Under the pieces are notes generated by a model, which did not search any database, had not been told where the DNA came from, and worked only from the letters and a program-made list of their open reading frames with translations. From an uncultured Prevotellaceae bacterium (GTDB lineage Bacteria > Bacteroidota > Bacteroidia > Bacteroidales > Muribaculaceae), in assembly GCA_900318335.1 (NCBI GenBank), contig ONKF01000008.1, positions 1 to 64,000 of the forward strand: a stretch of 64,000 nucleotides of DNA, in the 5' to 3' direction. The translations under genes and the position numbers were made by a program. Each line of letters begins with the position of its first letter. Positions within the stretch are counted from its first letter, which is position 1. Below, in pieces: positions 26,289 to 62,621 of the stretch.

Positions 26289-27719
26289 ATGAAACCACAA
26301 TCAACCAATGAACAACACACCCGCGTGCTGCGCGCCGCCTACCAGGCTTGGATGGGAGCGGCAGGCCTGAGGCAGGCACGCTTGAGGAACAAACGATTCA
26401 CCTATGGCGACCAGTGGGGAGACCTGGTGAAGGATTACCAGGGACGTGTGATGACCGAGCGCGAGCACCTTGCCAGCCAAGGCTGCGAGAGCATCACCAA
26501 CAACCTGATACGGCAATTGGTCAAGACCATCGTGGGGCGTTTCCGTTCACAGTACATCAAGCACGACGAGAACGACAAGGCCCCGACCACAAGAACACGG
26601 GTGAACGAGGACAACGAGCTCGATGAACTCGATAGCCGCGCCCTCGAGGAATTCCTGATCTCGGGCTGCTGCATCCAGCGAGTGGAGCCCTATCACGAGC
26701 CTGGCTTGAGCGAACGCGTGAGGGTCGACAACGTGAACGTCAACAAGTTCTTCACAGGAACCATCCACGACACCCGCGCCTGGGACTGCGAACTCATCGG
26801 CCAGCTGCATGACCTGAATATCGCCCAACTGCTGAGGCGTGTGGCGGGCGGCAACCAGCGCAAAGCAGCATGGGTGAGGCGCCTCTACACCGATGGTGCC
26901 GAGAGCCGCTTGGCAGATTTCACCACCCAGCTGGGTGCCGACACGCAACTGGGAACCGACTTCTGGCACGCCCGCGACGGCAAGTGCCGCGCCATCGAGG
27001 TATGGACGCTGGAGAGCCGCGAGGTCATTGTGTGCCACAATCGGCACGAGGGCACATTGACCGTCGAACCTGCTCATATCGCCCATCGACTGAAAAACCG
27101 TCCCGAGGTGAGCACACGCTGGGACATCGCCACCGTGTGGCATTGCCGATGGTTCAGCCCTATGGGCGACCTGCTCGCCGAGTATGACTCGCCCTGGGGT
27201 CACGGTAGCCACCCGTTTGTCATCAAGCTCTACCCGCTCACCGATGGTGAGGTGCATGCCGTGGTCGAGGACCTGATCGATAGCCAGAAGCACGTGAACC
27301 GCATGATCTCGCTGCTGGACCAGGTGATGCGCAGCAGCGCCAAGGGTGTGCTGCTGTTTCCCGAGACCGCACTACCCGACGGATGGACCTGGGAGGACGC
27401 ACGCCGCTGCTGGTCGAGCGCCAACGGGCTTCTGCCTTATAATCCGCAATATGGTGACGCCAAACCCGAGCAGATTAACGCCAATGGCAGCAACGGCGGC
27501 GCTTTCCAGATGATTGAGCTGCAGATGAAGCTGTTTGAGGAAATCAGCGGCGTGAGTAGCGCGCTGAAAGGCAAAAACCCGACCGTGAACAGCGCCAATG
27601 CCTATCAATTACAAAGCGAGAACGCCAACATCGCCTTGAGCGACGTGATGGACACGTTCGAGGCCTTTCGCCGCCAGCGCGACAAGAAAATCAAGGCCAT
27701 TGAAACAAACCCATGTTAA
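26289..27719 (+). CDS. Phage portal-like protein
   Basis: This encodes 476 residues. Portal features include RNKRFTYGDQWGD near the N-terminus, ITNNLIRQLVKTIVGRF, a central domain with EVHAVVEDLIDSQKHVNRMISLLDQVMRS (broken by variable turns), and the late segment LFEEISGVSSALKGK followed by a helix of the crown/stem type. Portals form the dodecameric ring through which the terminase pumps DNA. It is shorter than P22-type portals (over 700 residues). Codon use and base composition look like the host genes, not like the AT-rich island to its left. It is the first gene of a four-gene plus-strand operon. Confidence 0.75.
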   Translation: MKPQSTNEQHTRVLRAAYQAWMGAAGLRQARLRNKRFTYGDQWGDLVKDYQGRVMTEREHLASQGCESITNNLIRQLVKTIVGRFRSQYIKHDENDKAPTTRTRVNEDNELDELDSRALEEFLISGCCIQRVEPYHEPGLSERVRVDNVNVNKFFTGTIHDTRAWDCELIGQLHDLNIAQLLRRVAGGNQRKAAWVRRLYTDGAESRLADFTTQLGADTQLGTDFWHARDGKCRAIEVWTLESREVIVCHNRHEGTLTVEPAHIAHRLKNRPEVSTRWDIATVWHCRWFSPMGDLLAEYDSPWGHGSHPFVIKLYPLTDGEVHAVVEDLIDSQKHVNRMISLLDQVMRSSAKGVLLFPETALPDGWTWEDARRCWSSANGLLPYNPQYGDAKPEQINANGSNGGAFQMIELQMKLFEEISGVSSALKGKNPTVNSANAYQLQSENANIALSDVMDTFEAFRRQRDKKIKAIETNPC

Positions 27720-27770
27720 TCAGAGCCGTGGCTCTATCACGGCAATTCAATAACTTTAATTCAATCAACC

Positions 27771-28178
27771 ATGAACGACGAACAAGAGAACCGAGAATTG
27801 CAAGAGGCTGCGCCGGTGGCCACGCCACCGCCCTTTCGCCAGAGTGAAGAACCCGATGAGGCCGACCAGCAGGAGCCGACCGCCTCCCCCACCCTTGCCG
27901 ACCGCATCGCGGCGATGGGAATGGACGAAGCATCGACCCAACGCCTCACCCAACTGACCGAGTGCCTGGAGGGATCGGCAGCCAGCGATGAGCTGCTCGC
28001 CACCCTCGCCCGTGGCATCACCCACGACGATGACGTGCACAATGCCGATGCCGAGGGCTACCTGAGAGGCCGCAACGAGAAAATCGAGGCGGTCATGCAT
28101 CCCCAACCTCAAGACGAGGAGGAAACACAATCCACCCCTGTCTTTCCCCGCTACTGCCGCCGCAGCGTGTGGGACTAA
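27771..28178 (+). CDS. Small acidic protein between portal and capsid, scaffold-like by position
   Basis: This encodes 135 residues, very acidic and proline-rich at the N-terminus, with a short helical core (LADRIAAMGMDEASTQRLTQLTE, about residues 42-64) and a second helix around EGYLRGRNEKIEAVM. I do not recognise a family by sequence. Its place between portal and capsid genes is that of the scaffolding protein or capsid-maturation protease in many phages, but no protease motif is visible. It starts 51 bases after the portal stop. Confidence 0.55.
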   Translation: MNDEQENRELQEAAPVATPPPFRQSEEPDEADQQEPTASPTLADRIAAMGMDEASTQRLTQLTECLEGSAASDELLATLARGITHDDDVHNADAEGYLRGRNEKIEAVMHPQPQDEEETQSTPVFPRYCRRSVWD

Positions 28179-28180
28179 AG

Positions 28181-28230
28181 AGTTAGTAGTTAGAAGTTAG
28201 GAGTTAGTAGTTAGGAGTTAGAAGTTAATA
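28181..28230. repeat. AGTTA(G) heptad spacer in the phage-derived operon
   Basis: The spacer is made of seven-base words near agttagt/agttagg/agttaga. A close relative occurs between susD and the GH18 gene at 10451-10497 on the opposite strand. This ties the cassette to the host's own intergenic sequence style. Confidence 0.6.
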
Positions 28231-28260
28231 GTTTTTATTCACCTTTTCATTTTTATTACC

Positions 28261-29670
28261 ATGAACAACAGTAATTTAATCAAGACTGTGCGCTGGATGC
28301 GCAACCACAAGAAGTTAATCCTCTTTGTTATCATCATGATCCTCATCGCTATCCTGGCATCGTGTATCACTGGAGGCGATGGCAGCGGTGCATCGATGGC
28401 GGTGGGTATTCTTATCAGCGGTGTAGATGGCGGCAAGCACGTCGTCGATGGCCCGCTCACTACCGACATGAGCCGCGAGGGATCACCCGACTTGCTGCTC
28501 AACGAGATTGACCAGCAGATTGTGAAAATCCGCCCGATGTCCACGCCCATTGACCAGATTTCGCGCTATGCGGGCAGCAAGCACAGCGGTAGCATGGTCG
28601 TTGACTACTACAGCGTTGACACCAAGCCGACCAAAACCTACCTTTCCACCGAAATCGAGGAATCCACCCCCAGTGCTGGCGATGATACCCCCATTGCTGT
28701 GATCAACACCAGCGATAATGAAATCTTTGACCCGACCGACACGATACTCGTGCAAGGCATTCCCGGAGCCGGTAGCGATGGTACTACCATGAGCAAGCAG
28801 GACCTGATGCTCTATGTGTTGAACCGCGACAACTCGGGCGTCACCGTCATGGCCGTCAACGGCTTCACGATCAATGGTGTGCCTAACTGCTTCCCCAACA
28901 TCACTGCAGGCACTTCCCTGATTCGCATGGGCCGTGCCGCCAGCGAACTCGACGTGCAGTCACCCCAGTTCGAGTCGCTGCCCAAGAAGAGCCGCAACCT
29001 GTGCCAGATCTTCAAGATGCAGGTCGAGCAATCCACGCTGCAGCGCCTGGCCAACAAGGAGGTAGGCTGGACGATGAGCGACCAGGAAGAAGCTGCTGTC
29101 TATGACATGCGATTGGGTATGGAGAAGTCCTTCCTCTTTGGCTCTGCGCGCCAGATGTGGAATCCCGTCAAGAAGGAGACCATCTTCTTTACGGGCGGCA
29201 TCTGGAACCAGGCCGGCAAGGAGTATGCGCTGGAGGGCAGTGTGGAACTCGACACCGCCAAGATGGTGGAACTGATGAGAGAAGCCTTTACCGGCAATGC
29301 CGGCAGCAAGCGCAAGATCCTCATCGGCGGCAGCGGACTCATCAGCAGCATCAGCAAACTCGACTACTCGCGCATCATCACCGCTGGCCAGCACGTGAGT
29401 AAGTGGGGCATAGATTTCACCGAGTTGAGGTCGAAATTCGGCTGCCTGTACGTGTTGCTGAGCGAGGTGTTTGACGAAGTGGGCATGGAAGACAACGGCA
29501 TCATCATCGACCCCGAGTATATCCAGAAGTACACCCACATCCCCTTCAGCACCGAGCAGCTCAACCTCAAGAAGAGCGGCGTGCGCAACGTGGACGCGCT
29601 GGTCATGACCGAGGCTTCATGCCTGGTATTACGTTACCCCATGGCGCACATGCGCATCATCACCCGATGA
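28261..29670 (+). CDS. Major-capsid-like protein (SU10/DUF5309-like) with an N-terminal lipobox
   Basis: This encodes 469 residues. From about residue 80 onward the protein resembles HK97-fold major capsid proteins of the SU10/DUF5309 type: EIDQQIVKIRPMSTPIDQI, SGSMVVDYYSVDTKPTKT, MSDQEEAAVYDMRLGMEKS and a C-terminal TEASCLVLRYP. Unexpectedly, residues 1-35 form a basic head (RWMRNHKK), a long hydrophobic helix and LASC, a good lipobox (cysteine 35). An internal ATG at 28396 would remove this segment, but the segment is coding-like in codon use and contiguous. The stop overlaps the start of the M15 peptidase gene (ATGA), so the two are coupled. Capsid identity is likely but not certain. Confidence 0.65.
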   Translation: MNNSNLIKTVRWMRNHKKLILFVIIMILIAILASCITGGDGSGASMAVGILISGVDGGKHVVDGPLTTDMSREGSPDLLLNEIDQQIVKIRPMSTPIDQISRYAGSKHSGSMVVDYYSVDTKPTKTYLSTEIEESTPSAGDDTPIAVINTSDNEIFDPTDTILVQGIPGAGSDGTTMSKQDLMLYVLNRDNSGVTVMAVNGFTINGVPNCFPNITAGTSLIRMGRAASELDVQSPQFESLPKKSRNLCQIFKMQVEQSTLQRLANKEVGWTMSDQEEAAVYDMRLGMEKSFLFGSARQMWNPVKKETIFFTGGIWNQAGKEYALEGSVELDTAKMVELMREAFTGNAGSKRKILIGGSGLISSISKLDYSRIITAGQHVSKWGIDFTELRSKFGCLYVLLSEVFDEVGMEDNGIIIDPEYIQKYTHIPFSTEQLNLKKSGVRNVDALVMTEASCLVLRYPMAHMRIITR

Positions 29671-30065
29671 AGTACTTCACCATCAAGGAGCTCACGCGCT
29701 CCGATACGGCCCGCTGGCTCGGCATCGACAACACGCCGCCTCCCAATGCCGTCAGAGCGCTTCACGAGCTGGTGGACCATGTGCTCGACCCGTTGCGCGA
29801 GGCTTGGGGAGGCCCCATCAGGGTGAACAGCGGCTACCGCTGTCCCGAACTGAACCAGGCCGTGGGCGGCACACCCGGCAGCCAGCACCAGCGTGGCGAG
29901 GCAGCCGACATCACCGTCGGCTCCCGTAGCGGCAACCGCCGCCTGTTGGAACTGATTAAGCGCCTTAACCTCCCCGTTGACCAATGTATCGACGAGAAAG
30001 GGTGCCGCTGGATCCACGTGAGCCACCGCTCGGGCCGCAACCGCCGCATGTACATGAAGTTCTGA
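29667..30065 (+). CDS. Peptidase M15 family (D-Ala-D-Ala carboxypeptidase-like)
   Basis: This encodes 132 residues, the usual length for M15A/M15_3 phage enzymes. Visible: YFTIKELTRSDTA, IRVNSGYRCPELNQAVGG, SQHQRGEAADI (the zinc ligands H and D) and WIHVSH (third ligand histidine). It cleaves peptidoglycan stem peptides. Phages carry such enzymes as lysis or virion-associated peptidases. ATG at 29667 overlaps the capsid stop by four bases, which decides the start over the in-frame upstream reading at 29619. It is the last gene of the operon; a terminator follows. Confidence 0.88.
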   Translation: MKYFTIKELTRSDTARWLGIDNTPPPNAVRALHELVDHVLDPLREAWGGPIRVNSGYRCPELNQAVGGTPGSQHQRGEAADITVGSRSGNRRLLELIKRLNLPVDQCIDEKGCRWIHVSHRSGRNRRMYMKF

Positions 30066-30102
30066 TCCTCTACGCAATCATGGCCGATGATTGAAATGTT
30101 GA

Positions 30103-30152
30103 AAGGCAAGACTGGATGCTACTGGCGCCACGGTCTTGCCCTTTGTTTTTTT
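30103..30152 (+). terminator. Terminator of the phage-derived operon
   Basis: An 8 to 11-base stem (ggcaagac / gtcttgcc, 30106-30140) with a 19-base loop is followed by ctttgttttttt. It faces the convergent transporter gene that ends at 30164. Confidence 0.75.
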
Positions 30153-30163
30153 GCCATTCTTTC

Positions 30164-31828
30164 CTATAGGAAAATGAGCAGAAGCACCTGAGCGATAATG
30201 ACGCGCAGGAACATACTTAACGGATAGACCGCGGCATAGGCCACCGATGGGCGGTCGCTCTTGAGCGTGTCGTTGGCATAGTTCATCGCCATGGGGTTGG
30301 CCATCGCCCCGCTGAGCATTCCGCACACGGCGGCATAGTCGATATGCGCCATGCGCAGGGCCAGCCAGCCGACCAGCAGCACGGGAAGCAGGGTGAGCAG
30401 GAATCCCGCTCCCACCCACAACAGTCCCTCGGGGCGCACGACGGTAGCAAAGAAATCGGGACCGGACGCCAAGCCCAAACAGGCAAGATACAGGGCCAGA
30501 CCGATGGAACGCAACATGAGATTGGCGCTCGAGGTGGTATAGGCATTAACGTGGATGCGGGGGCCAAAGGCTCCAATCAGGATGCCCGCGATGATGGGAC
30601 CTCCCGCCAAACCCAATTTTACGGGTGCCGAGATGCCAGGCAGGGCAATGGGGATAGAGCCAAGGATGAGTCCGATAGTCATGCCGATGAACACGGTAAT
30701 CAGGTTGGGCTCATCAAGCATCTTGACGGCGTTGCCCACCTCCTTCTCGACGTTCTTGAGCGCTTCACGGTGCCCCACGGCAATGATGCGGTCGCCCAGC
30801 AGCAAGCGCAGGTCGGGCGTTGCCAACAGTTGCAGACCGCCACGGTTCACACGGCTGATGTTCACGCCATAGTGCTTGCGGAAACGCAGGGAACCTAACT
30901 TGCGGCCATTGATTTCGGGCTTCGTGACAAGTATCGCCTGGGAAACCAGGTCGCTGTCAATGGCGTTCCAATCGATGTCATCGGTATTCCAGTCGGTGCT
31001 CTCCTGCTTGCCGAACAGGACTTCCATGGCCTCGGCATCATCGTGGTCGCGCATGATGACCAGCAGACGGTCGTCGCGCATGAGCATAGTGTGGGCCTCG
31101 GGGATAGTCACCTTACCATCACGCCACAAGCGCGAGATAACGAACTGACGGGGACTGATGCGGGCCAGGTCGCCCACTGTCTTGCCGATAATCCCCTCGT
31201 TGCGCACCTGATAGGTGGCGATATAGGTGTGATCGGCTTCCTCCTCGCTCTCGTCAATAAGATGGTCCTCGGGGCGGACAAGTACCTTACGCATTAGGGC
31301 GAAAGCCAGAATAACACCCACAACGCCAAGCGGATAGGTTACAGCACAGCCCAGAGCGGCTCCGCTTTCGGGCTGATGCAGTTGAGCCAACGTCTGCTGG
31401 GCGGCGGCAAGGGCCGGAGTGTTGGTTGTCGCACCACACATGATACCCACCGCATCACTCAGGCTGATGCCCGCCAACGGCAGCAACAGGGTCAGCACCG
31501 TACCCACCAGCACCACGGCGAGAGCCCAAAGATTGAGCCTCAAACCCGACTTGTGGAACGAGCCGAAGAAACCCGGACCCACCTGCAGACCAAGGGCATA
31601 GACAAAGAGCACAAGGCCGAAATTCTGGGCATATTGCAGCATGTCGGCATCGATCGAAACGCCCAAGTGACCCGCCAAGATACCAAGGAAGAACACGAAG
31701 GCCACACCAAGCGACACGCCTAACACCTTGATTTTGCCCAAAGCGAGGCCACAGGCACACAACAGCGACAGGACGACTACCGCCTGCACCGCCGAGTGGG
31801 CCAAGAATATGTCAGTCAGCCATTGCAT
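30164..31828 (-). CDS. AspT/YidE/YbjL family putative transporter
   Basis: This encodes 554 residues. Hydrophobic helices occupy about 1-175 and 375-554. In between are two TrkA-C (RCK_C) regulatory domains (about 205-285 and 290-370; YQVRNEGIIGKTVGDL and ILVTKPEINGRKLGSL). This is the standard aspartate:alanine-exchanger family layout. Members exchange amino or dicarboxylic acids; the substrate here is unknown. Its start overlaps the end of the glycerate kinase gene by 13 bases, so the two are probably cotranscribed. Confidence 0.88.
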   Translation of the reverse strand: MQWLTDIFLAHSAVQAVVVLSLLCACGLALGKIKVLGVSLGVAFVFFLGILAGHLGVSIDADMLQYAQNFGLVLFVYALGLQVGPGFFGSFHKSGLRLNLWALAVVLVGTVLTLLLPLAGISLSDAVGIMCGATTNTPALAAAQQTLAQLHQPESGAALGCAVTYPLGVVGVILAFALMRKVLVRPEDHLIDESEEEADHTYIATYQVRNEGIIGKTVGDLARISPRQFVISRLWRDGKVTIPEAHTMLMRDDRLLVIMRDHDDAEAMEVLFGKQESTDWNTDDIDWNAIDSDLVSQAILVTKPEINGRKLGSLRFRKHYGVNISRVNRGGLQLLATPDLRLLLGDRIIAVGHREALKNVEKEVGNAVKMLDEPNLITVFIGMTIGLILGSIPIALPGISAPVKLGLAGGPIIAGILIGAFGPRIHVNAYTTSSANLMLRSIGLALYLACLGLASGPDFFATVVRPEGLLWVGAGFLLTLLPVLLVGWLALRMAHIDYAAVCGMLSGAMANPMAMNYANDTLKSDRPSVAYAAVYPLSMFLRVIIAQVLLLIFL

Positions 31829-32946
31829 GAGTTGTTTTCAAAATCAGATACCACCCGCTCCACAGCTTGAGAGACGCGCAAGAGGGTGGCATCGGTATCC
31901 ATTGCTAATTCAAGGGGGAGTCCGTCGCTCACGGCGATGGTCCGGTCCAGTCCAGCCTGACCGCAATCAAAATCCGCGCTGATGATTCCACAGACGGCTA
32001 CTGCAGACACACCATGTTCCCGAGCCATCTGGATGACACAGCCGGGGCCCTTGCCCATGAGCGTCTGCTGGTCGAGACAGCCTTCACCGGTGATGACGAG
32101 GTCAGCGTGGTCGAGAGCTGTTTCCAACCCGTTGTGCTCCAGGACATAGGGGGCGCCAGGCAACAATTCGCAGTCGAGCACATGCATCATCAGGGAGGGT
32201 ATGCCTCCTGCCGCGCCACAACCGGGATGGCAAGCGATGACATCACCCACAAGCGACGACACATGGGCAAGTCCCGCCTCCAGTTGCTCGACCTGAGAGG
32301 GGGAAGCACCCTTCTGAGGCCCGAAAACGCGCGCGGCGCCTTTTTCTCCGCACAACGGGGCATCCACATCGGTCAGGAGGGTGAAACGGCAGTCCCGCAC
32401 AGCCTGCGGAATGCCTCGGGTCTCGATATGAGCGATTCTGTCAAGGGATTCTCCGCTGGGATAGAGGTGATGCCCGTCGGAGTCAAGAAATTCGGCACCC
32501 AGTGCACACAGGATGCCCATTGCCGCGTCACAGGTCGCCGAGCCGCCCAGGCCGAGCACAATGCGCGTTGCGCCACGCTCCAGGGCGTCACGCATCAGCA
32601 TACCTGTACCCAATGAGGTGGCCCGCATCACATCACGGTCATCAGGTGAGAGCAGTGCCAGTCCACTGGCAGCCGCCACCTCGATGAGCGCCATGCCGTC
32701 ATCACACAGGAAATACCGTGCCATCACCGGGTCCTGCTGAAGCAACGGACCCATCGTGGGCACAGTCACCCACTGCCCCTGTCGGTTGGCAGCCAGCACA
32801 ACAGTCGTGCCATCACCGCCATCGGCAACAGGGACACACACGGCCGTGACTCCCTCATGATGGTCGAGAGCCTGCCGCGCGGCATCGTTGAGTTGTTGTG
32901 CAGTAGCCGAGCCTTTGAACTTATCAAACGCCAGGACTACCTTCAT
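31816..32946 (-). CDS. Glycerate kinase, GlxK/GarK family
   Basis: This encodes 376 residues with the family start MKVVLAFDKFKGSATA, the VADGGDGT loop, VLGLGGSATCDAAMGIL and DLVITGEGCLDQQTLMGKGP. The enzyme phosphorylates D-glycerate to 2- or 3-phosphoglycerate. ATG at 32946 is used, since the reading three bases longer begins with TTG. Its start shares one base with the stop of the coiled-coil lipoprotein gene (TGATG), so translation is coupled. The next gene downstream is the AspT-type transporter, which might import a linked acid (inference). Confidence 0.92.
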   Translation of the reverse strand: MKVVLAFDKFKGSATAQQLNDAARQALDHHEGVTAVCVPVADGGDGTTVVLAANRQGQWVTVPTMGPLLQQDPVMARYFLCDDGMALIEVAAASGLALLSPDDRDVMRATSLGTGMLMRDALERGATRIVLGLGGSATCDAAMGILCALGAEFLDSDGHHLYPSGESLDRIAHIETRGIPQAVRDCRFTLLTDVDAPLCGEKGAARVFGPQKGASPSQVEQLEAGLAHVSSLVGDVIACHPGCGAAGGIPSLMMHVLDCELLPGAPYVLEHNGLETALDHADLVITGEGCLDQQTLMGKGPGCVIQMAREHGVSAVAVCGIISADFDCGQAGLDRTIAVSDGLPLELAMDTDATLLRVSQAVERVVSDFENNSCNG

Positions 32947-33833
32947 CAATCAACTTTTACTACAAGGAAATTGGACTTTTCCCAAAAACGGGCGGGATTC
33001 AGGATGCGCAAGGTCTTGACATTGCCATGATCCACAATCTCATAGGAATCGTGGGGATGGTTGGTCATCACCTCGGCCTTAGAACTGTGCAGGGGAACCT
33101 CGTTGAGGGTGCGGCGGTCAGCCTTGGTGAAATAGGACATCTCGTAGTCACCCTGCAGGATCTTGGTCTTGCGAAGGAAGCCCGTCTCAATGATCTTGTG
33201 GGCCTTAAGCTCTTTCTTGGAACCAACGACATAGTAGCACACGTTCAGGTTGTTCACCTCGTTGGTGAGCTGCTTGGACTCTTCCTGGGCAGCCTCTTTC
33301 TCCTTGATGACGGTCTTGTTGACCGTGTTCAGGGAGTCAACGCTCTGGTTGAGGTTCTTGATCTGGATATGGGCTGCTGCCAGCTGGTCAGTCAGGCCGT
33401 TGATCGTATTCTGCTGCTCCTCGAGCTGCTGCTTGAGGTTAGCAATCGACTTCTGCATCGAGGCGTTGTAATTGGTGGATTGCTTGAGTCTCTTTTCCAA
33501 TTCGGCAAGGCGTGCCTTGTGCTTATTGATCGATTGCTGGATCAGCACGATATCGTCGCGCAGCTGTTTCTTGCGGTCGGGGGTCTCACCACTCAGGTTG
33601 TTGACCGAAACGATATCTTCAAGTTCCTTGATTTGCTGCATGCCGTCGGCTATATCGCCCATCAGTTGCATGAGGCTGTCTTTCTCGGCATTGGCAGTAT
33701 TGATGGAGTCTTGCAGCACGGCGTTGATGGAGTCCTGGCGCATGGCCTCGGCTTCCAGCTTGTTGCTGCGTTGACAAGCGGGCAAAATCGCAAGCCCTGC
33801 CATCAACCAAACTAAATACATGATCTTTTTCAT
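32946..33833 (-). CDS. Coiled-coil lipoprotein, Bacteroidales conserved
   Basis: This encodes 295 residues. The signal peptide ends in a lipobox (ILPAC). Residues 25-205 are almost continuous coiled coil with heptads (EKRLKQSTNYNASMQKSIANL and similar). The C-terminal 90 residues form a compact domain containing NVCYYVVGSKKELK, FLRKTKILQGDYE and SYEIVDHG. This pattern occurs in many Bacteroidales genomes and is of unknown function; an envelope-structural role is plausible. It heads a coupled set with glycerate kinase and the transporter. Confidence 0.75.
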   Translation of the reverse strand: MKKIMYLVWLMAGLAILPACQRSNKLEAEAMRQDSINAVLQDSINTANAEKDSLMQLMGDIADGMQQIKELEDIVSVNNLSGETPDRKKQLRDDIVLIQQSINKHKARLAELEKRLKQSTNYNASMQKSIANLKQQLEEQQNTINGLTDQLAAAHIQIKNLNQSVDSLNTVNKTVIKEKEAAQEESKQLTNEVNNLNVCYYVVGSKKELKAHKIIETGFLRKTKILQGDYEMSYFTKADRRTLNEVPLHSSKAEVMTNHPHDSYEIVDHGNVKTLRILNPARFWEKSNFLVVKVD

Positions 33834-33854
33834 ACCTATTTCTTTTTATAATAA

Positions 33855-34589: not shown

Positions 34590-34610
34590 AATGATGGTGG
34601 TAGAAAAGTG

Positions 34611-37416: not shown

Positions 37417-37425
37417 AGACGGCCG

Positions 37426-51136: not shown

Positions 51137-51164
51137 CCCTCACACGTTTCACCCTTCACGGCAG

Positions 51165-54059: not shown

Positions 54060-54253
54060 GGGTGCAGTTAATGTCAATTACAATTATTGTTCTGCAAAAT
54101 TAAAAATATTTTTTTAATTAATCAGTGCTTTTCCGCCAATACAATTCAACCTTCGGCGATAACTACCATAATCTATAGCCATTTACGGGCACCTTTTCAA
54201 CTTGATGATGATAATTTTTGGCACCAAGGAGGAGCTTTATCAATTTTAATGTG

Positions 54254-54261
54254 TAACTTTG
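54254..54261 (+). promoter_or_regulatory. -7 element of the DUF4199-GT2 operon
   Basis: TAACTTTG lies ten bases before the ATG at 54272, predicting a leader of about five bases. The -33 region has no clear TTTG. Confidence 0.45.
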
Positions 54262-54271
54262 CGGTTTGTAT

Positions 54272-54805: not shown

Positions 54806-54849
54806 CATTGATTTCAACACATTACATGTAAGAAGATAGAAGAAATAAA

Positions 54850-55893
54850 ATGGACATTTCAGTAGTAGTACCTCTTTATAACGAAGCCGAGTCACTGCCC
54901 GAGTTGGCGGAATGGATCGAGCGGGTCATGGACGAGAACAAGTTCACCTACGAGGTGCTGTTCATCAACGACGGCAGCACCGACAACTCGTGGGAGGTCA
55001 TCAAGGACCTGAACAGCAGGAATCCCCACTTGAAAGGAATCTCCTTCAGGCGCAACTACGGCAAGTCGCCCGCCCTGAACACGGGTTTTGAGCGCGCCCA
55101 GGGTAATGTCATCATCACCATGGACGCCGACCTGCAGGACAGCCCCGACGAGATTCCCGAGCTCTACCGCATGATCACCCAGGACGGTTACGACCTGGTG
55201 AGCGGCTGGAAAAAGAAGCGCTACGACCCGCTGAGCAAGACCATTCCCACCAAGCTGTTCAACGCCACGGCACGCCGGGTGAGCGGCATCCACAACCTGC
55301 ATGACTTCAACTGCGGCCTCAAGGCCTACCGCAAGGAGGTCGTCAAGCACATCGAGGTCTATGGCGACATGCACCGCTATGTGCCCTATCTGGCCAAGAA
55401 CGCGGGCTTTAACCGCATCGGCGAGAAGGAGGTCAAGCACCGCGCCCGCAAGTATGGCACGACCAAGTTTGGCCTTGACCGTTTTGTCAACGGTTACCTT
55501 GACCTACTGACGCTTTGGTTCCAGGCCAAGTTCGGCGTCAAGCCGATGCACTTCTTCGGCCTGCTGGGCAGCCTGATGTTCCTGCTGGGTTTCATCGCCG
55601 TCATCGTCGTGGGAGCCCTCAAGCTCTATAACATGTATAGCGGCAACAGTTACCGGCTCGTGACAGAATCGCCCTACTTCTACCTCTCACTCACTTCGAT
55701 GCTCCTGGGCACCCAGCTGTTCCTGACGGGTTTCCTGGGCGAGCTCATCATCCGCCACAGCAACGACCGTAACCACTACGAGATTGGCGACGAGACCCCC
55801 GATGCCACGGCCATTGAGGCACGCCGCCGTGTCAACGACCTGCCCAAGACCACCATCGTCGAGAACGAGAAAAACGCCATCGAAGCCCAATGA
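54850..55893 (+). CDS. GT2 glycosyltransferase with two membrane helices (GtrB/DPM1-like)
   Basis: This encodes 347 residues. The catalytic domain shows SVVVPLYNEAESLPEL, LFINDGSTDNSWEVI, FRRNYGKSPALNTGF and the DxD-like MDADLQDSP. Two C-terminal hydrophobic helices (about 237-262 and 275-300) anchor it. The family transfers glucose or a related sugar to polyprenyl phosphate at the inner membrane. Its stop overlaps the DUF6452 start (ATGA). Confidence 0.9.
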   Translation: MDISVVVPLYNEAESLPELAEWIERVMDENKFTYEVLFINDGSTDNSWEVIKDLNSRNPHLKGISFRRNYGKSPALNTGFERAQGNVIITMDADLQDSPDEIPELYRMITQDGYDLVSGWKKKRYDPLSKTIPTKLFNATARRVSGIHNLHDFNCGLKAYRKEVVKHIEVYGDMHRYVPYLAKNAGFNRIGEKEVKHRARKYGTTKFGLDRFVNGYLDLLTLWFQAKFGVKPMHFFGLLGSLMFLLGFIAVIVVGALKLYNMYSGNSYRLVTESPYFYLSLTSMLLGTQLFLTGFLGELIIRHSNDRNHYEIGDETPDATAIEARRRVNDLPKTTIVENEKNAIEAQ

Positions 55894-56384
55894 GCCGCCA
55901 AGCCCATATCGCCCTGTTGATGCTCGTCTTGCTGATGGGCGTCGCATCGTGCAGTGACGACAGTTGCTACGAGAATGGCAGCAGCCTGCCGCTGGCCGAA
56001 TTCTATATGAACGGGGCCAAGTCCACCATCACGGGCATCACCGTCATGGGCATCGGCGTCCCGGGCGATAGCCTCCTGGCCGATTCCAGCTCGCTGAACG
56101 AGATCTACCTGCCCTTACGGGCCTCGACCAGCAGCACGAGTTACTTCATCGGGCGTTGGGTGACGTTCGAGGGCGAGAGACTCGAGTTTGTCGACACCAT
56201 TACCATCGAGTACCGTCCCATTGAGTATTTCCAATCGGCCGAATGCGGCGCGATGTTCAACTTCGACATCAAACACCTGAGTTGGACCGAAAACGCCATC
56301 GACTCGGTGACACTGGTCACGCCCATGATCACCAACGCGATCACTCCCGCCATGCGCATACATTTCCCCGACTTTGACCTATGA
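55890..56384 (+). CDS. DUF6452 family lipoprotein
   Basis: This encodes 164 residues with a lipoprotein signal peptide ending GVASC, followed by SDDSCYENGSS. The rest is a beta-rich domain (LAEFYMNGAKSTITGITVMGIG, LPLRASTSSTSYF). The family is restricted to Bacteroidetes and of unknown function. It overlaps both neighbours by four bases, so the GT2, DUF6452 and DUF6048 genes are strictly coupled. Confidence 0.78.
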   Translation: MSRQAHIALLMLVLLMGVASCSDDSCYENGSSLPLAEFYMNGAKSTITGITVMGIGVPGDSLLADSSSLNEIYLPLRASTSSTSYFIGRWVTFEGERLEFVDTITIEYRPIEYFQSAECGAMFNFDIKHLSWTENAIDSVTLVTPMITNAITPAMRIHFPDFDL

Positions 56385-57286
56385 CGAGCCAGCGCACATA
56401 CCCATCACCCAGTGTCATCAAAGGGACGGTTCTTTTGATGGCATTCTGCCTGTTTTTTGCCTTTGCCGCCAGCGCGCAGCAGCCCGACAAACGTCATGTG
56501 ACGCCCGTCAAGCCCGAGACCAATCAGGTGAAACCGCCACCCAAGGGCACCGACGAGAAAATCATCCAGCAATACATCAGCGGCGACAGCGCAGCAGCCA
56601 TTGCCGAGGCGCGCAAGGACTCGCTGCGGCGCGTCTATAAGCATTACCCGCTGCTCACCGACCTGTCGATAGGCCTCAACATCGCCGACCCGTTGTTCAT
56701 GATGTTCGGCCAGAGCTACGCCAGTGTCGATGTGAGCGCCACATTGAATATGTGGAACCGCTTGCAGCCCACCATCGAGTTGGGTATGGGCTGGGCCAAG
56801 TCCACACCCGACGACATGAACTTCACCTACAAGGGCAAACCTTCGCCCTATGTCAAAGTGGGTGTCAACTACAATTTCATGTTCAAGAACAGCCCTGATT
56901 ACCAGGCGCTTGTGGGACTCAGACTGGGTTACAGCAACTTCGGCTACGATGTGACCGATATCACCTACTGGAACACCTACTGGCAGGAGGACATCAACTA
57001 CAACATCACCGACGAGCGCTCTCATGCCCTGTGGGGAGAAGCGGGCGTGGGCCTTAAGGTCAAATTGTGGGACCGCCTGTCTATGGGGTGGATGATACGC
57101 TATCACGGAATTTTCAACTATGGCAAGAATGAGCATTCATTGCCCTGGTTCATACCGGGTTACGGCCCGCGCAAGGGCTCATTGGGCTTATCTCTGGGGT
57201 TCTATTATACCTTGCCTATCCGCTCCAAAGCTAAGGCAAAAGCCATAGACGAGCCTAACGGCACTTCAACCATAACCAATCAATAA
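56381..57286 (+). CDS. DUF6048 family outer-membrane beta-barrel protein
   Basis: This encodes 301 residues. A signal peptide (ending near FAASAQQ) and a proline/lysine-rich linker precede a beta-barrel region (LTDLSIGLNIADPLFMMFG, VKVGVNYNFMF, ALVGLRLGYSNFGYD, GVGLKVKLWDRLSMGWMIRYH, SLGLSLGFYYTLP). It always follows DUF6452 in this kind of operon. The lipoprotein/barrel pair suggests a small outer-membrane complex (inference). Confidence 0.78.
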   Translation: MTSQRTYPSPSVIKGTVLLMAFCLFFAFAASAQQPDKRHVTPVKPETNQVKPPPKGTDEKIIQQYISGDSAAAIAEARKDSLRRVYKHYPLLTDLSIGLNIADPLFMMFGQSYASVDVSATLNMWNRLQPTIELGMGWAKSTPDDMNFTYKGKPSPYVKVGVNYNFMFKNSPDYQALVGLRLGYSNFGYDVTDITYWNTYWQEDINYNITDERSHALWGEAGVGLKVKLWDRLSMGWMIRYHGIFNYGKNEHSLPWFIPGYGPRKGSLGLSLGFYYTLPIRSKAKAKAIDEPNGTSTITNQ

Positions 57287-57302
57287 CATCAACATAACAT
57301 TT

Positions 57303-57437
57303 ATGATCAAGAAACCTTTTGGCACCTATCGACCCGGCGGACGTGTGCCACGGCTCACCCCACCCGCCAAGCCCGACTGGTTCAAGCGCTTCAAGCAGCT
57401 TGCCTCACTTGCCGACAAGCATTTCAAGGTCAAGTAG
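57303..57437 (+). CDS. Small basic protein, 44 residues
   Basis: ATG at 57303 opens 44 codons ending in TAG at 57435-57437. The product (MIKKPFGTYRPGGRVPRLTP, then a basic helix with KRFKQLASLADKHFK) has no hydrophobic segment. It lies 16 bases after the DUF6048 stop on the same strand, so it is likely the last gene of that operon. It could bind nucleic acid or ribosomes, but nothing proves this. The remaining stretch to 57708 is AT-rich and holds no gene. Confidence 0.55.
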   Translation: MIKKPFGTYRPGGRVPRLTPPAKPDWFKRFKQLASLADKHFKVK

Positions 57438-57708
57438 GGCGATGACCAGTCCTTCGATTTTTTTATTGTTAAATTTCATCGATTTTTCAAAAAAATTTTG
57501 CCAGTTCAAAAAAAGTTCGTAATATTGTACTCTGAAAAGCGGGAGAAATACGGCTTTTTATAACCAATTCTCTCATTTTCAGTAATTTATTAACATTATA
57601 GCGAATCTTCTATTCCTTTGAATGGCAGACGCTAAACCCAATGATAAAAAAACAACAAAACAAAAAATATTAATTAACATTATTACTAACAATTTAACTC
57701 ATTTAATT

Positions 57709-58683
57709 ATGAAGATTAAAAATTTACTCTTTTTTGCTGCTGCAGCTTCGCTGAGCTTCTCCGCATTTGCCGATGATCTGGCAACTGGTGAATGGGCATG
57801 GCTGAGCACTGGCGAGCCCGCTGTTGTTGGTCAGACCACTCAGGACCACCTGTTCGTACGCGGTGACTTCGAGGGCACTGGTACTGTTGCTGACAACCAG
57901 ATTTCGTTCTTGCTGGGTACTCCCCAAACCGTTTGGGTATGGCTCGATGACGATGAGATCTATCTGAATGACAAGGTTCAGGCCCTGACTCCCATCGCAA
58001 TCAACAGCGCAGGCGACCTCTACAACGAGATTACTTATAACTCACTGCAGACCGACGTTTATCTGCCCATGTGCATGGAGCTGATCATGATGGAGAACGA
58101 GGATGGTGACGAGGTTGCTTTTGAGCAGGGTGACCGTATGCCCAACTCAGCTGACTTCGCTCTGAAGGAGAAACCCGAGACCAAGGTCGTAGACGGTAAG
58201 GAGTATCGCGTTTATTCAATCGTTATTTCTAACACCAAGGAGATCTGCACCCACTTCTCTTCAAAGAACGCCAGCTCTTACAAGAACAATGGCGCCCTCA
58301 AGAAGGACGACGCTGCTCTGTTCGGTGTATTCATGATGAACAATGACCAGGATCAGGCTGTAGGTCGTCTCGACCAGGACATGATCATCGCTAACACCGA
58401 GTTCGGTATCCGCGAGTGTGTTCGTGACGGTTGGGAGCCCAACGACTATCGCTTCATCTATGGTACTGGCGGTAACAACGAGAGCCAGCGCTTCCAGCTC
58501 TACAACCGTGCTGAGCTCTATGGCAGCAGCAGCGTAGTTGAGAACCTGTCTGAGAAGACCGTCAACAACGTTAAGTACATCAACGTTGCCGGTATGGAGA
58601 GCAATGTTCCCTTCGAGGGTGTTAACATCAAGGTGACCACCTACAACGATGGTACCACCAGCACCAGCAAGGTGATCAAGTAA
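57709..58683 (+). CDS. Secreted protein with type IX-like C-terminal tail
   Basis: This encodes 324 residues with a signal peptide (KNLLFFAAAASLSFSAFA). The body is beta-rich and acidic without a recognised domain (LFVRGDFEGTGTVADNQ; VWVWLDDDEIYLN). The tail (NNVKYINVAGMESNVPFEG, ending TSTSKVIK) matches the type IX-like ends of the 15411, 44936 and 46914 proteins. ATG at 57709 gives the signal peptide; the in-frame start at 57622 precedes an implausible lysine-rich leader. It is closed by a bidirectional terminator. Confidence 0.72.
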   Translation: MKIKNLLFFAAAASLSFSAFADDLATGEWAWLSTGEPAVVGQTTQDHLFVRGDFEGTGTVADNQISFLLGTPQTVWVWLDDDEIYLNDKVQALTPIAINSAGDLYNEITYNSLQTDVYLPMCMELIMMENEDGDEVAFEQGDRMPNSADFALKEKPETKVVDGKEYRVYSIVISNTKEICTHFSSKNASSYKNNGALKKDDAALFGVFMMNNDQDQAVGRLDQDMIIANTEFGIRECVRDGWEPNDYRFIYGTGGNNESQRFQLYNRAELYGSSSVVENLSEKTVNNVKYINVAGMESNVPFEGVNIKVTTYNDGTTSTSKVIK

Positions 58684-58706
58684 GAAATAAATTATTTCTA
58701 CATACA

Positions 58707-58741
58707 ATAAAAAACGCAGGCTTTTCCGCCTGCGTTTTTTT
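58707..58741. terminator. Bidirectional terminator between the secreted-protein and terminase genes
   Basis: The stem acgcagg / cctgcgt is bounded by A-runs on the left and T-runs on the right, so it can stop transcription from both strands. It closes both the 57709 gene (plus) and the terminase operon (minus). Confidence 0.88.
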
Positions 58742-58749
58742 ATTGGGAC

Positions 58750-60621
58750 TTACACTGGGGTCACCATCCAGCCGTTATGGGACATCGAGGGGTCGGGCGA
58801 CGACACGGGTCTCGCCAGTTCATCCATCACCAGCAGCCCGATGGCGCGCGTCATGAGAATATCGTCATGCTTGCCCGGCCTCGCTTCATAGCGTCCCTTG
58901 CGCTCTACATAATCGCGCATCTCGTTCACCGCCTCGATGTCGCGTTCCAGATATGCCCCGTCCCTCAATGCCTTGATCAATGCGGCAATAGCCTTGCTCT
59001 TGGTCTTGACATTGGTATGGAAACCCAGCCTGTGGGAACTGCGCTGGTACACATTGCCATATACCCTGCGCACCGACTCCAGGATGTAGTCACTCTCGCC
59101 CGCACGTGCCGCCTCGTTGGTGAGCGTGTTGCTCTCGACCACGAGCAGAGCCCTATTATAGAGCAGGGCGAGCTGCATCGCTTTCCACGCCAGCATGTCA
59201 TGATCGATGTGACCGCGCCATTGCGCCACGATGGCGGCCTTGTGGAATTCATCGCCACGGCGCCACACGGCAATCACCGAGTAGTCACTGCTCTCGGACC
59301 TGCCGCCCACATCCACCACAACCAGGTAACTGGCCTTGACCGGGCCGTCACACCGGGGCATTTCCCACACCTTGAGCAATCCATGTCTCGCCCTCACGAG
59401 GTGCACTCCCTTTTTGGCCTCACGCCCCTCCAACCCTGCGCCCTGGATATCGCCCACCAACAGGGGTTCCGCCACACATTGCCGTTCCAAGCGGTCCAAG
59501 TCTTCATGCTCAAATGGGTTGCCGCCTGTTGTAGCAAAGGCCTCGCTCGCGCTACCGGGATATTCGGCCATCATCAACTCGTGGGTGCGGTATTCACGGC
59601 GCTTGTGGTGATACCAGTTGATCTGTTCGAGCGTGAGGCCGTCCTGCCACAGTTGCCGCTCATATTCGTCCATATCCTCCCACAGGGCGGTTGGATCGTC
59701 CACATCAAGGGCATAGATGTCGATCTCATGCCATGGCACAAACACCTGCATCTTGTCGCTGCGCTCCATCTGCGCCCTGAGCCACTCGTCATGGAAATAG
59801 CCACCCACGCCATCGGCACTGGACTCGAGCACAATGACCGTCTCGGGTTTGAGCACAATACTGCCGCACACGCTACGCACCAGGTCATCAGGGTTGTGCA
59901 TCGTGCTCTCATGCCAGAATGCCACTTCGCTCAAGTGGGCCATCGCGATGTCATAGCCGCGCACCGCATCCTCGCTGCGGGCACTTCCCGTGATGACCAG
60001 GCACTCACGCTGCTCAATCTGCTGCACATTGGGCTGACCCTCGAGTTTAGTGAATCGTGGCTTTTCCTCTTCATCATCGAGGAGTTCGCGTGGATAATGC
60101 CTCAACATCAGGTTATACATGCGCTTGATGCCTTTACTCGTGTCAAGCCGATGGCCGCAGATGAGGCTATTCCAGCCCTTGTGACGCACCAATTGCATCC
60201 ATGCCAGGTACATCTGAACCAGGGTGGAGCCGCCCCACTGACGCGCCTTGAGCAGGATCACGCGCACGGGGCGTCCCTCGACACGCTGCCCTTCCATCAC
60301 TCCCAGCAGGCGCCGCTGCGGCCTGTTGAGGACGAACCGTGCGTTGCGGCCACTCATCTTGTCCTTGATGGTCACGCAACGCGCGCACCAGAACTCAAAG
60401 TCCTCGACGATGCGCAACTTATCCCGGCTTATCGGGTCTAATGATTCATAATCAGGCCGTTGCTGAACCACCGTGCGGGGCACAAGACATCCAGCCGCCT
60501 CTACCCTATCGCCCCAGCATCCCACGCCCGTCATCGGGTCATAACGCTCCTGCTCGCGGACAAGATGCCGCCGTTCATTCTCGGCCATCAAGGCCTCAAT
60601 GGTCATCTGATTGTCTTTCAT
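58750..60621 (-). CDS. Phage terminase large subunit
   Basis: This encodes 623 residues. The ATPase motor has the terminase-type Walker A (KARQWGGST, about 125-133) and a Walker B/coupling glutamate (AHLSEVAFW, E232). Then comes EYPGSASEAFATTGGNPF. The RNase H-like nuclease keeps its acids: VVVDVGG (D437), VVESNT (E496) and KHDD (586/587). All catalytic residues seem intact, so the enzyme could package DNA. It overlaps the upstream 667-residue gene by four bases (ATGA). Unusually, portal and capsid genes are not adjacent but about 28 kb away on the other strand, and no small terminase is seen. Composition matches the host. Confidence 0.9.
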   Translation of the reverse strand: MKDNQMTIEALMAENERRHLVREQERYDPMTGVGCWGDRVEAAGCLVPRTVVQQRPDYESLDPISRDKLRIVEDFEFWCARCVTIKDKMSGRNARFVLNRPQRRLLGVMEGQRVEGRPVRVILLKARQWGGSTLVQMYLAWMQLVRHKGWNSLICGHRLDTSKGIKRMYNLMLRHYPRELLDDEEEKPRFTKLEGQPNVQQIEQRECLVITGSARSEDAVRGYDIAMAHLSEVAFWHESTMHNPDDLVRSVCGSIVLKPETVIVLESSADGVGGYFHDEWLRAQMERSDKMQVFVPWHEIDIYALDVDDPTALWEDMDEYERQLWQDGLTLEQINWYHHKRREYRTHELMMAEYPGSASEAFATTGGNPFEHEDLDRLERQCVAEPLLVGDIQGAGLEGREAKKGVHLVRARHGLLKVWEMPRCDGPVKASYLVVVDVGGRSESSDYSVIAVWRRGDEFHKAAIVAQWRGHIDHDMLAWKAMQLALLYNRALLVVESNTLTNEAARAGESDYILESVRRVYGNVYQRSSHRLGFHTNVKTKSKAIAALIKALRDGAYLERDIEAVNEMRDYVERKGRYEARPGKHDDILMTRAIGLLVMDELARPVSSPDPSMSHNGWMVTPV

Positions 60622-62621
60622 GGCTTGGAACTATACAACAATACAGGTAATACGAGCGTTCCCGGTGAAGCCTGGCCCGTCAGCGACAAGGTCAGGGTGC
60701 GTGCCCTTACCGCCATCGGTGCGGCAGCCAGTGGCTGTGACACCTCACCACTGACGACAATGGTGCTCACGGCACAGTCCTGGGCCATGATACCTCGTTG
60801 CCCCGTCACGCCGAGTGTCAAGTCCACATCACTGCCGGTCACGTGCCACACCACCCGCTTGACGGCACGTGCCAGCAGCGGGTCGAGCGCGATGGGATGA
60901 GTGAGCCACTGCACAGGCACCACCCCGCGTGTCTGCTCCTGCTCCAGGTCAAGCACGCTCCCCGATGCCGTTACCGCCACGGCATGCTGCGGGTCGCTCA
61001 AGAGTTGAACGACCTCGATAGAGCGGCGGCTCATCCTGCCACTACCCATCATCACCAGCGGATTGTCCTGCGACGGCAGCATCCACAACTCGCCATGGGC
61101 ATTGCACCATGCCATGGCCACACAGTCCACGTCACGCTGGCACACGGTCAATGCCGCCCCACTCAGGCGGCACAAATGGCCATGACGCGAAATGAACCAG
61201 ATGTCGCGCCCACCCTCGACAGGCCCAACCGCTGCGTCAATCACCGTACGGTCAACCAAGCGTGCCTCGCCGAGGGTGCCCGATGCGCTGCTCTGGGGAA
61301 TGGCATAGATGCCATCGTCGGTGAAGACATAGACTGGATATCGGCCAAAACCGCCCGAATACAACGGCCGCGTGACCACAGCCAGCGCTAGCGGACGCGC
61401 CCCTAACACCAATCGGCGATGCGCCTCGACCAGGGCATTGCCCGGGGCACTCACAATCACTGCGCCATCGCCCGTGCAGCAATACAACCGGCCACCCGCT
61501 GCAGTCGAGCACACAACATTCCCGACGCTATTCATCGTGCCCACCGCGGCACATTGCTCGTTGGTCATCGACTGCAGCAGCAATGGCGCCGTGAAGTCGC
61601 TGCCGGTCATGTGGGCCGACACTGGCGCTGTGGCTATCACTTGCCATGGTGAGGAAGCCAACTGAGTCGCAATAGCGTCAGCGCTATGACGGGCCAAACC
61701 CATCTCCAGCACATACTCACGTGGCGTGGTCGTGCGTATCAGGCATCGGTAGTCGAGCGAGCGGGTTGCGGTGAGCAGATTGGCCTCACGGGTCGCCAGC
61801 ACGTCAACACCCGCGACAAGCGGCAACCACTCGGAAGCGATATCCCGCCCCACAGTAATGCCGAGTGCATAATGGACAAACGGCAGACGGGTCGCTTCGA
61901 TACCCATGAAACCGCTGCCGCCCGTGGTTACGTTGGCAGCAATGCGGTCGGCATTGACCAGCGTTTCATCACCCACACGGCAGGGATCGCTCATCCACAG
62001 GTAAGTCCCATCCTTGAGGCGAACGGCCCAACGCACCAGCATCGGCGCCGTGTGGCGCCCCTCGGCAAGGGCATCGGCCCTCAGTGCCGACCAGGCCGTG
62101 TTGAGCATGCGTGCCAGCGCGATGGTATCGGCAGCCGCCAGCGGAGCGCGCCACTGGCTATAGGGCTCAGCAAAGGTATAGGCCTCGATATCGGCGCTCG
62201 ATGTGGCACAGGTGGCGGTAAAACTCAACTGTGGGATGGCATCGGCTGGATCAAGCACGACCCAACCACTCCCTGACGGGAACAGATAGGTGAAACCGTT
62301 ACTGGTGACGACGACAATCACGCTGCCGATGGAATGGGCATTCAGGATGGTACCCTCGACAGTGGCTACCACCCTGCCGTCAATCTTGACCTCATGCCCA
62401 CGGCACGTCACATCATGTCCGCCAGTGATGAGCAGCAGACGCTCCCCAGCCCCAATCCGCCTCACCGCCATGGGATTGCCTGTCACTTGCAGGGAGTCTT
62501 CCTGCTCCCGCACATTGATAGCGACGGCAGCTTCGCCCGTCACCGTCGCTTCGCGGTTGACGCGAGGGACACTGCCCCTGGGCACTACAACCGTCTGTTT
62601 CATTGCTTGTTGTTTCTTCAT
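60618..62621 (-). CDS. Virion-like beta-rich protein, 667 residues
   Basis: There is no confident family match. The sequence is almost entirely beta, with repeated short units (GRLYCCTGDGAVIVS, YPVYVFTDDGIYAIP, RDIWFISRHGHLCRL, GELWMLPSQDNPLVM; about residues 380-560) suggestive of a beta-propeller, as in the gp10 tail-hub protein of P22-like phages. It is coupled to the terminase gene by ATGA, so a structural or packaging role is likely. There is no signal peptide. ATG at 62603 is an alternative start. A host-type promoter precedes it. Confidence 0.55.
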   Translation of the reverse strand: MKKQQAMKQTVVVPRGSVPRVNREATVTGEAAVAINVREQEDSLQVTGNPMAVRRIGAGERLLLITGGHDVTCRGHEVKIDGRVVATVEGTILNAHSIGSVIVVVTSNGFTYLFPSGSGWVVLDPADAIPQLSFTATCATSSADIEAYTFAEPYSQWRAPLAAADTIALARMLNTAWSALRADALAEGRHTAPMLVRWAVRLKDGTYLWMSDPCRVGDETLVNADRIAANVTTGGSGFMGIEATRLPFVHYALGITVGRDIASEWLPLVAGVDVLATREANLLTATRSLDYRCLIRTTTPREYVLEMGLARHSADAIATQLASSPWQVIATAPVSAHMTGSDFTAPLLLQSMTNEQCAAVGTMNSVGNVVCSTAAGGRLYCCTGDGAVIVSAPGNALVEAHRRLVLGARPLALAVVTRPLYSGGFGRYPVYVFTDDGIYAIPQSSASGTLGEARLVDRTVIDAAVGPVEGGRDIWFISRHGHLCRLSGAALTVCQRDVDCVAMAWCNAHGELWMLPSQDNPLVMMGSGRMSRRSIEVVQLLSDPQHAVAVTASGSVLDLEQEQTRGVVPVQWLTHPIALDPLLARAVKRVVWHVTGSDVDLTLGVTGQRGIMAQDCAVSTIVVSGEVSQPLAAAPMAVRARTLTLSLTGQASPGTLVLPVLLYSSKP

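Follow-up and report, generated by a model that had tools for sequence, protein, structure and literature searches.

The window analysed here, a 64,000-nucleotide stretch of an uncultured Prevotellaceae bacterium (contig ONKF01000008.1, positions 1 to 64,000), carries two modules of phage-derived head and packaging genes. A plus-strand cassette contains the genes for a portal protein, a scaffold-position protein, a major capsid protein and an M15 peptidase, and a minus-strand operon contains the genes for a large terminase and a beta-rich protein, henceforth referred to as the gp33-like protein, which showed a weak match (2e-5) to gp33 (899 amino acids) of Bacteroides phage BF1-TP2. Coordinates and profile matches are presented in Table 1. 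A first-pass annotation, made from the DNA letters, had described two phage modules about 28 kb apart. PHROG and Pfam matches confirmed the portal, capsid, M15 peptidase and terminase genes, so that both modules are genuine, and the measured distance between them was 28.7 kb, occupied mostly by ordinary host-type genes.

Table 1 Phage-derived genes of the window and the promoters preceding them.
Feature	Position	Strand	Basis
Cassette promoter: box TTTTGACATGGTG, 19 bp, TAATTTTG starting 71 bp before the portal start	26186-26225	+	
Portal protein, P22 type, 476 amino acids	26289-27719	+	PHROG 156, 1e-41; Pfam P22_portal, 2e-17
Scaffold-position protein, 135 amino acids, putative role from position	27771-28178	+	PHROG 22323, 0.003, weak alone
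Major capsid protein, SU10 type	28261-29670	+	Pfam SU10_MCP, 9e-47
M15_3 peptidase, endolysin-like, last cassette gene	29619-30065	+	PHROG endolysin, 1e-35
Large terminase, ATPase and nuclease motifs conserved	58750-60621	-	PHROG 2, 7e-20
Beta-rich (gp33-like) protein, 667 amino acids, putative virion role	60618-62621	-	PHROG 32516 (unknown function), 4e-11
gp33-like/terminase operon promoter: box TTTTGTGCTTGTG, 19 bp, TACCTTTG	62662-62701	-	

The genes recur throughout the genus of the window. Among 61 same-genus genomes, the capsid gene was found in 59, the terminase gene in 57, the portal gene in 59 and the gp33-like gene in 58, and all four occurred together in 52. Internal stops were present in few of the best matches: two of 59 for the capsid (G042, G007), two of 57 for the terminase (G053, G040) and three of 59 for the portal (G057, G039, G034). 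The capsid gene of G015 was in pieces, and some of these stops and broken genes may be assembly errors. A family census was made with 225 genomes of family f1, each at least 90% complete; we infer this family to be Muribaculaceae. A capsid match was obtained in 212 of the 225 genomes and in 25 of 26 genera, 174 of the matches being strong and 38 weak (E of about 1e-11 to 1e-20). An order-wide draw of 393 genomes gave 33 capsid matches, six of them in f1 and 25 in families f22, f28, f60, f68, f88 and f109; the remaining two were outliers, one in f23 and one in f20 (G079), the latter being a prophage. Relatives with a named source were mostly from ruminants. Among the weak family matches, three were in genus g46 and 35 in genus g220, which has 45 matching genomes in all. 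Those 35 g220 genomes contained only a very divergent capsid match (E of about 1e-13 to 1e-19), and the other 10 had the usual capsid; the difference may reflect replacement, rapid change or a capsid of another kind.

Selection on the set was estimated as the ratio of nonsynonymous to synonymous substitution (dN/dS), given as NG86 medians over pairs with dS below 1.5, with dS partly saturated. In clade A, the clade of the window within its genus, median dN/dS was 0.135 for the portal, 0.178 for the capsid, 0.177 for the terminase, 0.152 for the M15 peptidase, 0.247 for the gp33-like protein and 0.327 for the scaffold-position protein, with rpoB at 0.034. The broken G007 capsid was excluded from the capsid distance and dN/dS sets, and the genome of the window from the rpoB set because its rpoB was recovered as fragments that gave no locus. 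The terminase motifs KARQWGGST, HLSEVAFW, ESTANG, VVDVGG...SDYS, ESNT and HDDILMTRA, which we take to represent the ATPase and nuclease centres, showed few changes across 33 host sequences, in agreement with the catalytic residues having been called intact at first reading; no small terminase subunit was recognised for the set. The set is kept by purifying selection and its catalytic motifs are intact.

Distances between the proteins of the set followed those of rpoB, with r values of 0.95 for the capsid (30 genomes), 0.93 for the terminase (25 genomes) and 0.98 for the portal (21 genomes), a value as high being reached by 0 of 2000 permutations in each case. This high correlation reflects deep groups. 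In set B, the rest of the genus and the sister set of clade A (not recovered as a single clade by the capsid tree), DNA distances gave r values against rpoB of 0.76 for the capsid (0/5000) and 0.55 for the terminase (23/5000). Capsid and terminase distances, which belong to genes that are unlinked or far apart, also agreed with each other, with values of 0.54 in clade A and 0.81 in set B (0/5000 each). The phage-derived structural and packaging genes are inherited vertically by the cell lineage, the exceptions being the viral contig L320 and a weak agreement with rpoB inside clade A, both described below.

Gene arrangement was compared in the relatives using the proteins of the window and of BF1-TP2. 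Clade A keeps the cassette order and often the host neighbours. In set B the scaffold-position and capsid genes mostly stand alone, and most loci have no portal gene within 10 kb (L090 and L098 are exceptions). Capsid and terminase genes were separated by about 14, 25, 27, 30 and 57 kb in G051, G059, G035, G014 and G018, respectively, and by 955 kb in the one-contig genome G060, in which the portal gene and a gp54-like gene are located at further places. In genomes of other families (G352, G416, G319, G081, G087), scaffold-position and capsid genes occur together with some gp55-like, fibre-like and gp54-like genes, while the portal, terminase and gp33-like genes are elsewhere in G081 and tens of kilobases off in G087. 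The names "adaptor" (for gp54) and "fibre" are our assignments from position and motifs. The gp54-like gene was present in 14 of 37 same-genus genomes of one scan and in G060. The particle gene set detected in the genus comprises head, packaging and lysis-type genes, with the putative gp54-like adaptor patchy. The BF1-TP2 integrase was matched only in the G079 prophage, which is consistent with the earlier claim that phage mobility genes do not accompany the modules.

Despite this dispersal, the modules are preceded by a common promoter box. Alignment of clade A upstream regions identified a conserved box before the portal gene (TGCTTTTTGACATGGTGG, 18-19 bp, TAATTTTGCAGCG), and a related box was found before the gp33-like/terminase operon (GCTTTTTGTGCTTGTG in the genome of the window, G000), followed by TANNTTTG, which we take to be a host-type promoter element. 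The resulting clade A pattern, TTTTGNNNTKGYG-N17-20-TANNTTTG, drawn from some of these promoters, matched the window twice, exactly upstream of both modules, and had no match in any of 100 shuffles. Across 37 clade A loci (762,396 bases), all 36 matches were located at most 400 bp upstream of a module gene, and 35 of the loci, the window included, contained the pattern (none was found in L057 or L103). A search of 23 whole genomes returned 68 matches compared to two for a reversed control; the box was present at the portal-capsid cassette in 20 of 21 clade A genomes and at the gp33-like operon in 14 of the 17 with known coordinates. A generic host promoter, TTTG-N18-22-TANNTTTG, was also tried as the common element and rejected, as its five window matches included none at the modules. 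That the generic pattern misses both module promoters suggests an activator or a special sigma factor. The host-type promoter reported in the first-pass annotation was therefore upheld with respect to the TANNTTTG element, present at both modules, but not with respect to the remainder, since a special box lies upstream at a spacing outside the generic host pattern.

A second, partly independent pattern (TTGAYNTKG-N20-21-TANNTTTG) gave 45 matches in 24 genomes (control, 4), of which 21 precede phage-derived genes. In G014 there were exactly four, located before the scaffold-capsid, terminase, gp54-like and portal genes. Both matches in G012 were at set genes (portal and capsid), and the five in G003 included the portal, capsid and gp54-like genes and an Amidase_2 gene that PHROG assigns to lysis. 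Set genes accounted for three of six matches in G015 and two of four in G039, the portal and scaffold genes were among the four in G005, and one site each preceded phage-derived genes in G044, G046, G050 and G000. Sites that had not been used to draw this pattern were those at the portal gene in G014, G003, G012, G015 and G046, at the gp54-like gene in G003 and G039, and at the amidase of G003, the gp33-like gene of G044 and the capsid gene of G050.

The clade A pattern matched G000 three times in all, G006 13 times and G623 eight times. The additional sites are mostly before unrelated genes, and only one group, the DUF7833/DUF6291 proteins, repeats among them. The third G000 site precedes such a protein (L255:1969-2880, G000 contig 55), and relatives of it are behind the same box three times in G623 and once in G006, making this protein a candidate regulator. 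In G006, several contigs carry a repeated box variant, TTTTGTCATGGTG...GTTTTGTACCTTTG, which was located before unrelated genes where inspected.

The surroundings of both modules in the window are of host type. Pfam scans covered 50 of its 57 non-overlapping open reading frames (ORFs), the other seven being of at most 100 amino acids. No integrase, repressor, replication or tail family was found in these 50 ORFs, as had been claimed for the vicinity of the modules, and neither locus had integration or replication genes of its own. The modules do not show the layout of a temperate phage, in which integrase, regulation, replication, head and tail genes are contiguous. Their GC content of 0.56-0.61 is close to that of neighbouring genes, confirming the host-like composition described before. 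Of the 44 non-module ORFs scanned, 32 had a Pfam family and 12 did not; these families were of ordinary host type (including SusD, TonB receptor plug, glycosyltransferases, glycerate kinase, P-type ATPase, YceG and a hybrid two-component regulator) except for an N6 DNA methylase. The methylase gene, at 23086-25674, is directly before the portal cassette in a stretch of low GC content (0.34-0.38, 22000-26000). In L044, L045 and other relatives, no more than about 1 kb separates the flanking gene from the portal start, and the methylase stretch therefore looks like a recent insertion. A protein with a TfoX N-terminal domain is encoded at 2077-2400.

The portal of the window is 476 amino acids long, compared to 644-714 amino acids in phage BF1-TP2, G087 and G081. 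Full-length proteins of the genus are mostly about 470-490 (portal), 95-200 (scaffold-position) and 630-720 (gp33-like) amino acids, the BF1-TP2 counterparts being 644, 283 and 899 amino acids. Scaffold-position homologues in other families are also longer (252-331 amino acids) and placed before the capsid gene. Such shortening of the scaffold and portal would be compatible with a head of reduced size. The capsid N-terminus (about residues 8-48; 28261-28404 encodes residues 1-48) has a conserved basic plus hydrophobic segment resembling a signal or anchor, which often ends near an AxA or ASC motif (relatives in L108, L114, L115, L116, L118 and L122). This segment was present in the genus, in G081, G087, G319, G352 and G416 and in gp56 of BF1-TP2, and was not seen in the G295 and G373 capsids. 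It could perhaps indicate a membrane-anchored procapsid cleaved by an intramembrane protease. Among solved structures, the portal matched nothing but short TALE repeats and one antibody, hits which were taken as spurious, and the gp33-like and gp54-like proteins had no useful relatives among solved structures.

Of 50,697 phage records, only three had capsid matches at E ≤1e-5, namely Bacteroides phages BF1-TP2, BKO1-TP3 and BS-TP4 (PQ571263, PQ571269 and PQ571277). Identity to BF1-TP2 was 34% for the portal, 39% for the capsid and 37% for the terminase. True prophages related to the set occur in the group and are compact and 25-45% identical. Such compact prophages in the genus (L110-L111, G042) and in the order (L112-L113, G079) carry proteins of 3038 and 3373 amino acids, respectively, and G042 holds its prophage beside the domesticated set. 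When viral contigs were searched with peptides of the window capsid, one contig was found, which bears a host neighbour gene; a looser capsid profile matched 105 contigs, and 80 of them were retained. A gene annotated as a rhomboid protease adjoins the terminase gene of BF1-TP2 and was matched in 37 of the 80 related viral loci; such a protease might be the one that cuts a membrane-anchored procapsid.

In a capsid tree of 67 rows, a branch with support of 100/98 separated 27 phage rows from 40 others, with a program warning of long branches. Left out of the tree were the broken G007 capsid, the capsid of the G042 prophage, L324 and L325; of the remaining viral capsids, one third was included. 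Four viral contigs, L320-L323, were placed on the host side. L321-L323 are contigs of 6-9 kb with terminase, scaffold, capsid, gp54-like and portal genes in a row, and L320/L400 is prophage-like, with lysozyme-like and fibre-like genes and an antirepressor match.

The set is probably a vertically inherited, host-controlled packaging and lysis regulon resembling a gene transfer agent (GTA), derived from one ancient domesticated P22/SU10-type phage gene set. Host control is supported by the shared box, which may coordinate expression of the split loci. The census, dN/dS values and shared box favour conserved, host-controlled packaging over a decaying prophage, as proposed at first pass, with particle function a predicted property. 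The three observations named in advance as contradicting that proposal were not made: all four genes occur well beyond a single strain (52 of 61 genus genomes; capsid in 212 of 225 family genomes, 38 weakly), no phage mobility gene was found in the 50 of 57 window ORFs scanned or, by comparison with the window and BF1-TP2 proteins, at the loci of relatives other than the G079 prophage, and selection is not relaxed, dN/dS being below 1 throughout and stops rare, with some set B genes at 0.35-0.55. A host signal would activate the promoter box, after which portal, scaffold and capsid would assemble a small procapsid. The terminase, working with no recognised small subunit, would cut host chromosomal DNA and pump it into the procapsid, and the M15 peptidase (or an amidase) would open the cell. 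The particles would then bring host DNA to relatives in the manner of a GTA. Owing to their dispersal, the genes could not be packaged together and would be maintained for the benefit of the host lineage. Formation, host-DNA content and delivery of such particles are predictions from gene content.

Several observations weigh against this regulon. The portal, scaffold-position and gp33-like proteins are shortened in the genus of the window. Median dN/dS is higher in set B, at 0.246 for the capsid, 0.346 for the terminase, 0.476 for the portal (3 pairs) and 0.554 for the gp33-like protein, with rpoB at 0.092. Within clade A, protein distances gave r values against rpoB of only 0.14 (capsid), -0.16 (terminase) and 0.15 (portal), none significant, and DNA distances gave 0.43 (13/5000), 0.24 (558/5000) and 0.29 (385/5000), respectively. 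The gp54-like gene was absent from 13 clade A genomes, that of the window included, and from G012 and G013, and a gp55-like gene was found in 0 of 61 genus genomes by a search without a positive control. No receptor-binding, holin or small terminase gene was recognised, and fibre-like genes, seen in other families, were not searched for in the genus. A second, diverged terminase copy is present in 7 of the 57 terminase-bearing genomes. The box is missing at the cassette of G048 and at the gp33-like operon of G035, G054 and G057, and its recovery at known promoters is circular because the pattern was drawn from such promoters, although its rarity elsewhere is not. The second pattern had no match in 7 of 24 genomes. 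Outside the genus, the expression used found the box before none of 13 genes, which came from other families or from further f1 genera. No box match was obtained in G295 or G456, and the two matches in G373 were not linked to the set. The prophage-like L320/L400 takes an unresolved position among host capsids of f22, f28, f60 and f109, so that domestication may have occurred more than once and a single origin for all families is not proven. Sequencing of human faecal particles, as given in excerpts of one report, located GTA-like packaging mainly in Bacillota and not in Bacteroidota (PMC12946183).

Domesticated phage heads might alternatively serve a use other than transfer, as a PBSX-like killing particle, in altruistic lysis, or as a defence against related temperate phages that works by mispackaging or poisoning them. 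The set detected in clade A lacks adaptor and receptor-binding genes, lysis-type enzymes belong to it, and related prophages reside in the same hosts, which would give interference something to act on. Terminase ATPase and nuclease motifs, however, are kept across family-level divergence and are not obviously needed by a killing or decoy particle, and in other families the capsid gene still has fibre-like, gp54-like and gp55-like neighbours. Such a use is considered possible but rather unlikely. Several independent captures of related prophages, with convergent scattering, would account for the position of L320/L400, for the different gene arrangement of clade A and its sister set and for the weak rpoB agreement inside clade A. 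Family-wide presence, a mostly single-copy capsid, dN/dS below 1, rpoB agreement over deep groups and related boxes in both genus sets make repeated capture improbable.

Clade A head genes unaccompanied by recognised tail genes would also be expected of a phage satellite or capsid-hijacking island that obtains its missing tail parts from a helper phage. This is a very improbable origin given the lack of an integrase family in the scanned ORFs, the 955 kb between capsid and terminase in G060 and the presence of the set across the family. A single-strain oddity, whether a decaying or a recently split prophage, might explain the shortened portal, scaffold-position and gp33-like proteins but is refuted by the genus and family census and contradicted by dN/dS and the shared promoter box; its probability is negligible.

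The preferred regulon, extended to its full reach, would be a Bacteroidota GTA that forms part of the core genome throughout one gut and rumen family, six or more further families of the order carrying related sets. The former prophage would there have broken up into unlinked loci, some as small as one gene, tied only by a dedicated promoter box and with selection on the host lineage alone. The chances of this extended form are about even.

A near-universal GTA-like regulon in a gut and rumen family could explain host DNA in gut virus-like particles. If true, it would show the reach of domestication, with genes unlinked yet function maintained by regulation. In the mouse gut, according to excerpts of a published survey, 83 contigs classified as Bacteroidetes displayed transduction patterns; across all phyla, patterns of generalised transduction or GTAs were displayed by 46 contigs (PMC7667829). 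As the capsid was matched in 25 of the 26 sampled genera, cultivated members probably carry the set, which makes the question testable. No report of a GTA in Bacteroidales was present among the open-licence literature matches listed. GTAs themselves are already known; what is new is the shared promoter box joining dispersed phage-derived packaging loci.

The alphaproteobacterial GTAs RcGTA and CcGTA are likewise vertically inherited, host-controlled, phage-derived packaging genes, those of RcGTA being located at several loci. In contrast to them, the set of the window gives P22_portal and SU10_MCP matches, and no main structural cluster containing tail genes was detected, the comparison having been made by Pfam and PHROG scans only. 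PBSX of Bacillus subtilis forms one compact cluster. The phages BF1-TP2, BKO1-TP3 and BS-TP4 share a homologous capsid with the set, that of BF1-TP2 having the same type of N-terminal segment. Their records are 64-68 kb long, and that of BF1-TP2 is annotated with an integrase, a repressor, replication genes and a 3633-amino-acid protein, whereas the host copies are fewer, shorter and dispersed. As described in excerpts of two reports, PBSX resembles the predicted particles in being phage-derived and defective and in packaging host DNA but differs in being bacteriocin-like and without DNA transfer (PMC7667829, PMC12946183).

In the excerpted source, Alphaproteobacteria and Brachyspira account for most formally recognised GTAs, and the Faecalibacterium element FpGTA is presented as the first GTA-like element of the human gut microbiome (PMC12946183). 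FpGTA belongs to a different phylum, and microscopy, proteomics and particle DNA exist for it, while the present set is known from genes alone (PMC12946183). It consists of two operons with tail-fibre and receptor-binding genes (PMC12946183), compared to loci that shrink to as few as one or two genes, with a shared box, here. FpGTA is itself divided between two loci, which in one genome lie about 125 kb from each other (PMC12946183). It resembles the present set in coming from a gut commensal, in its podovirus-type head genes, in its conservation across a genus and in having lysis genes within the set (PMC12946183).

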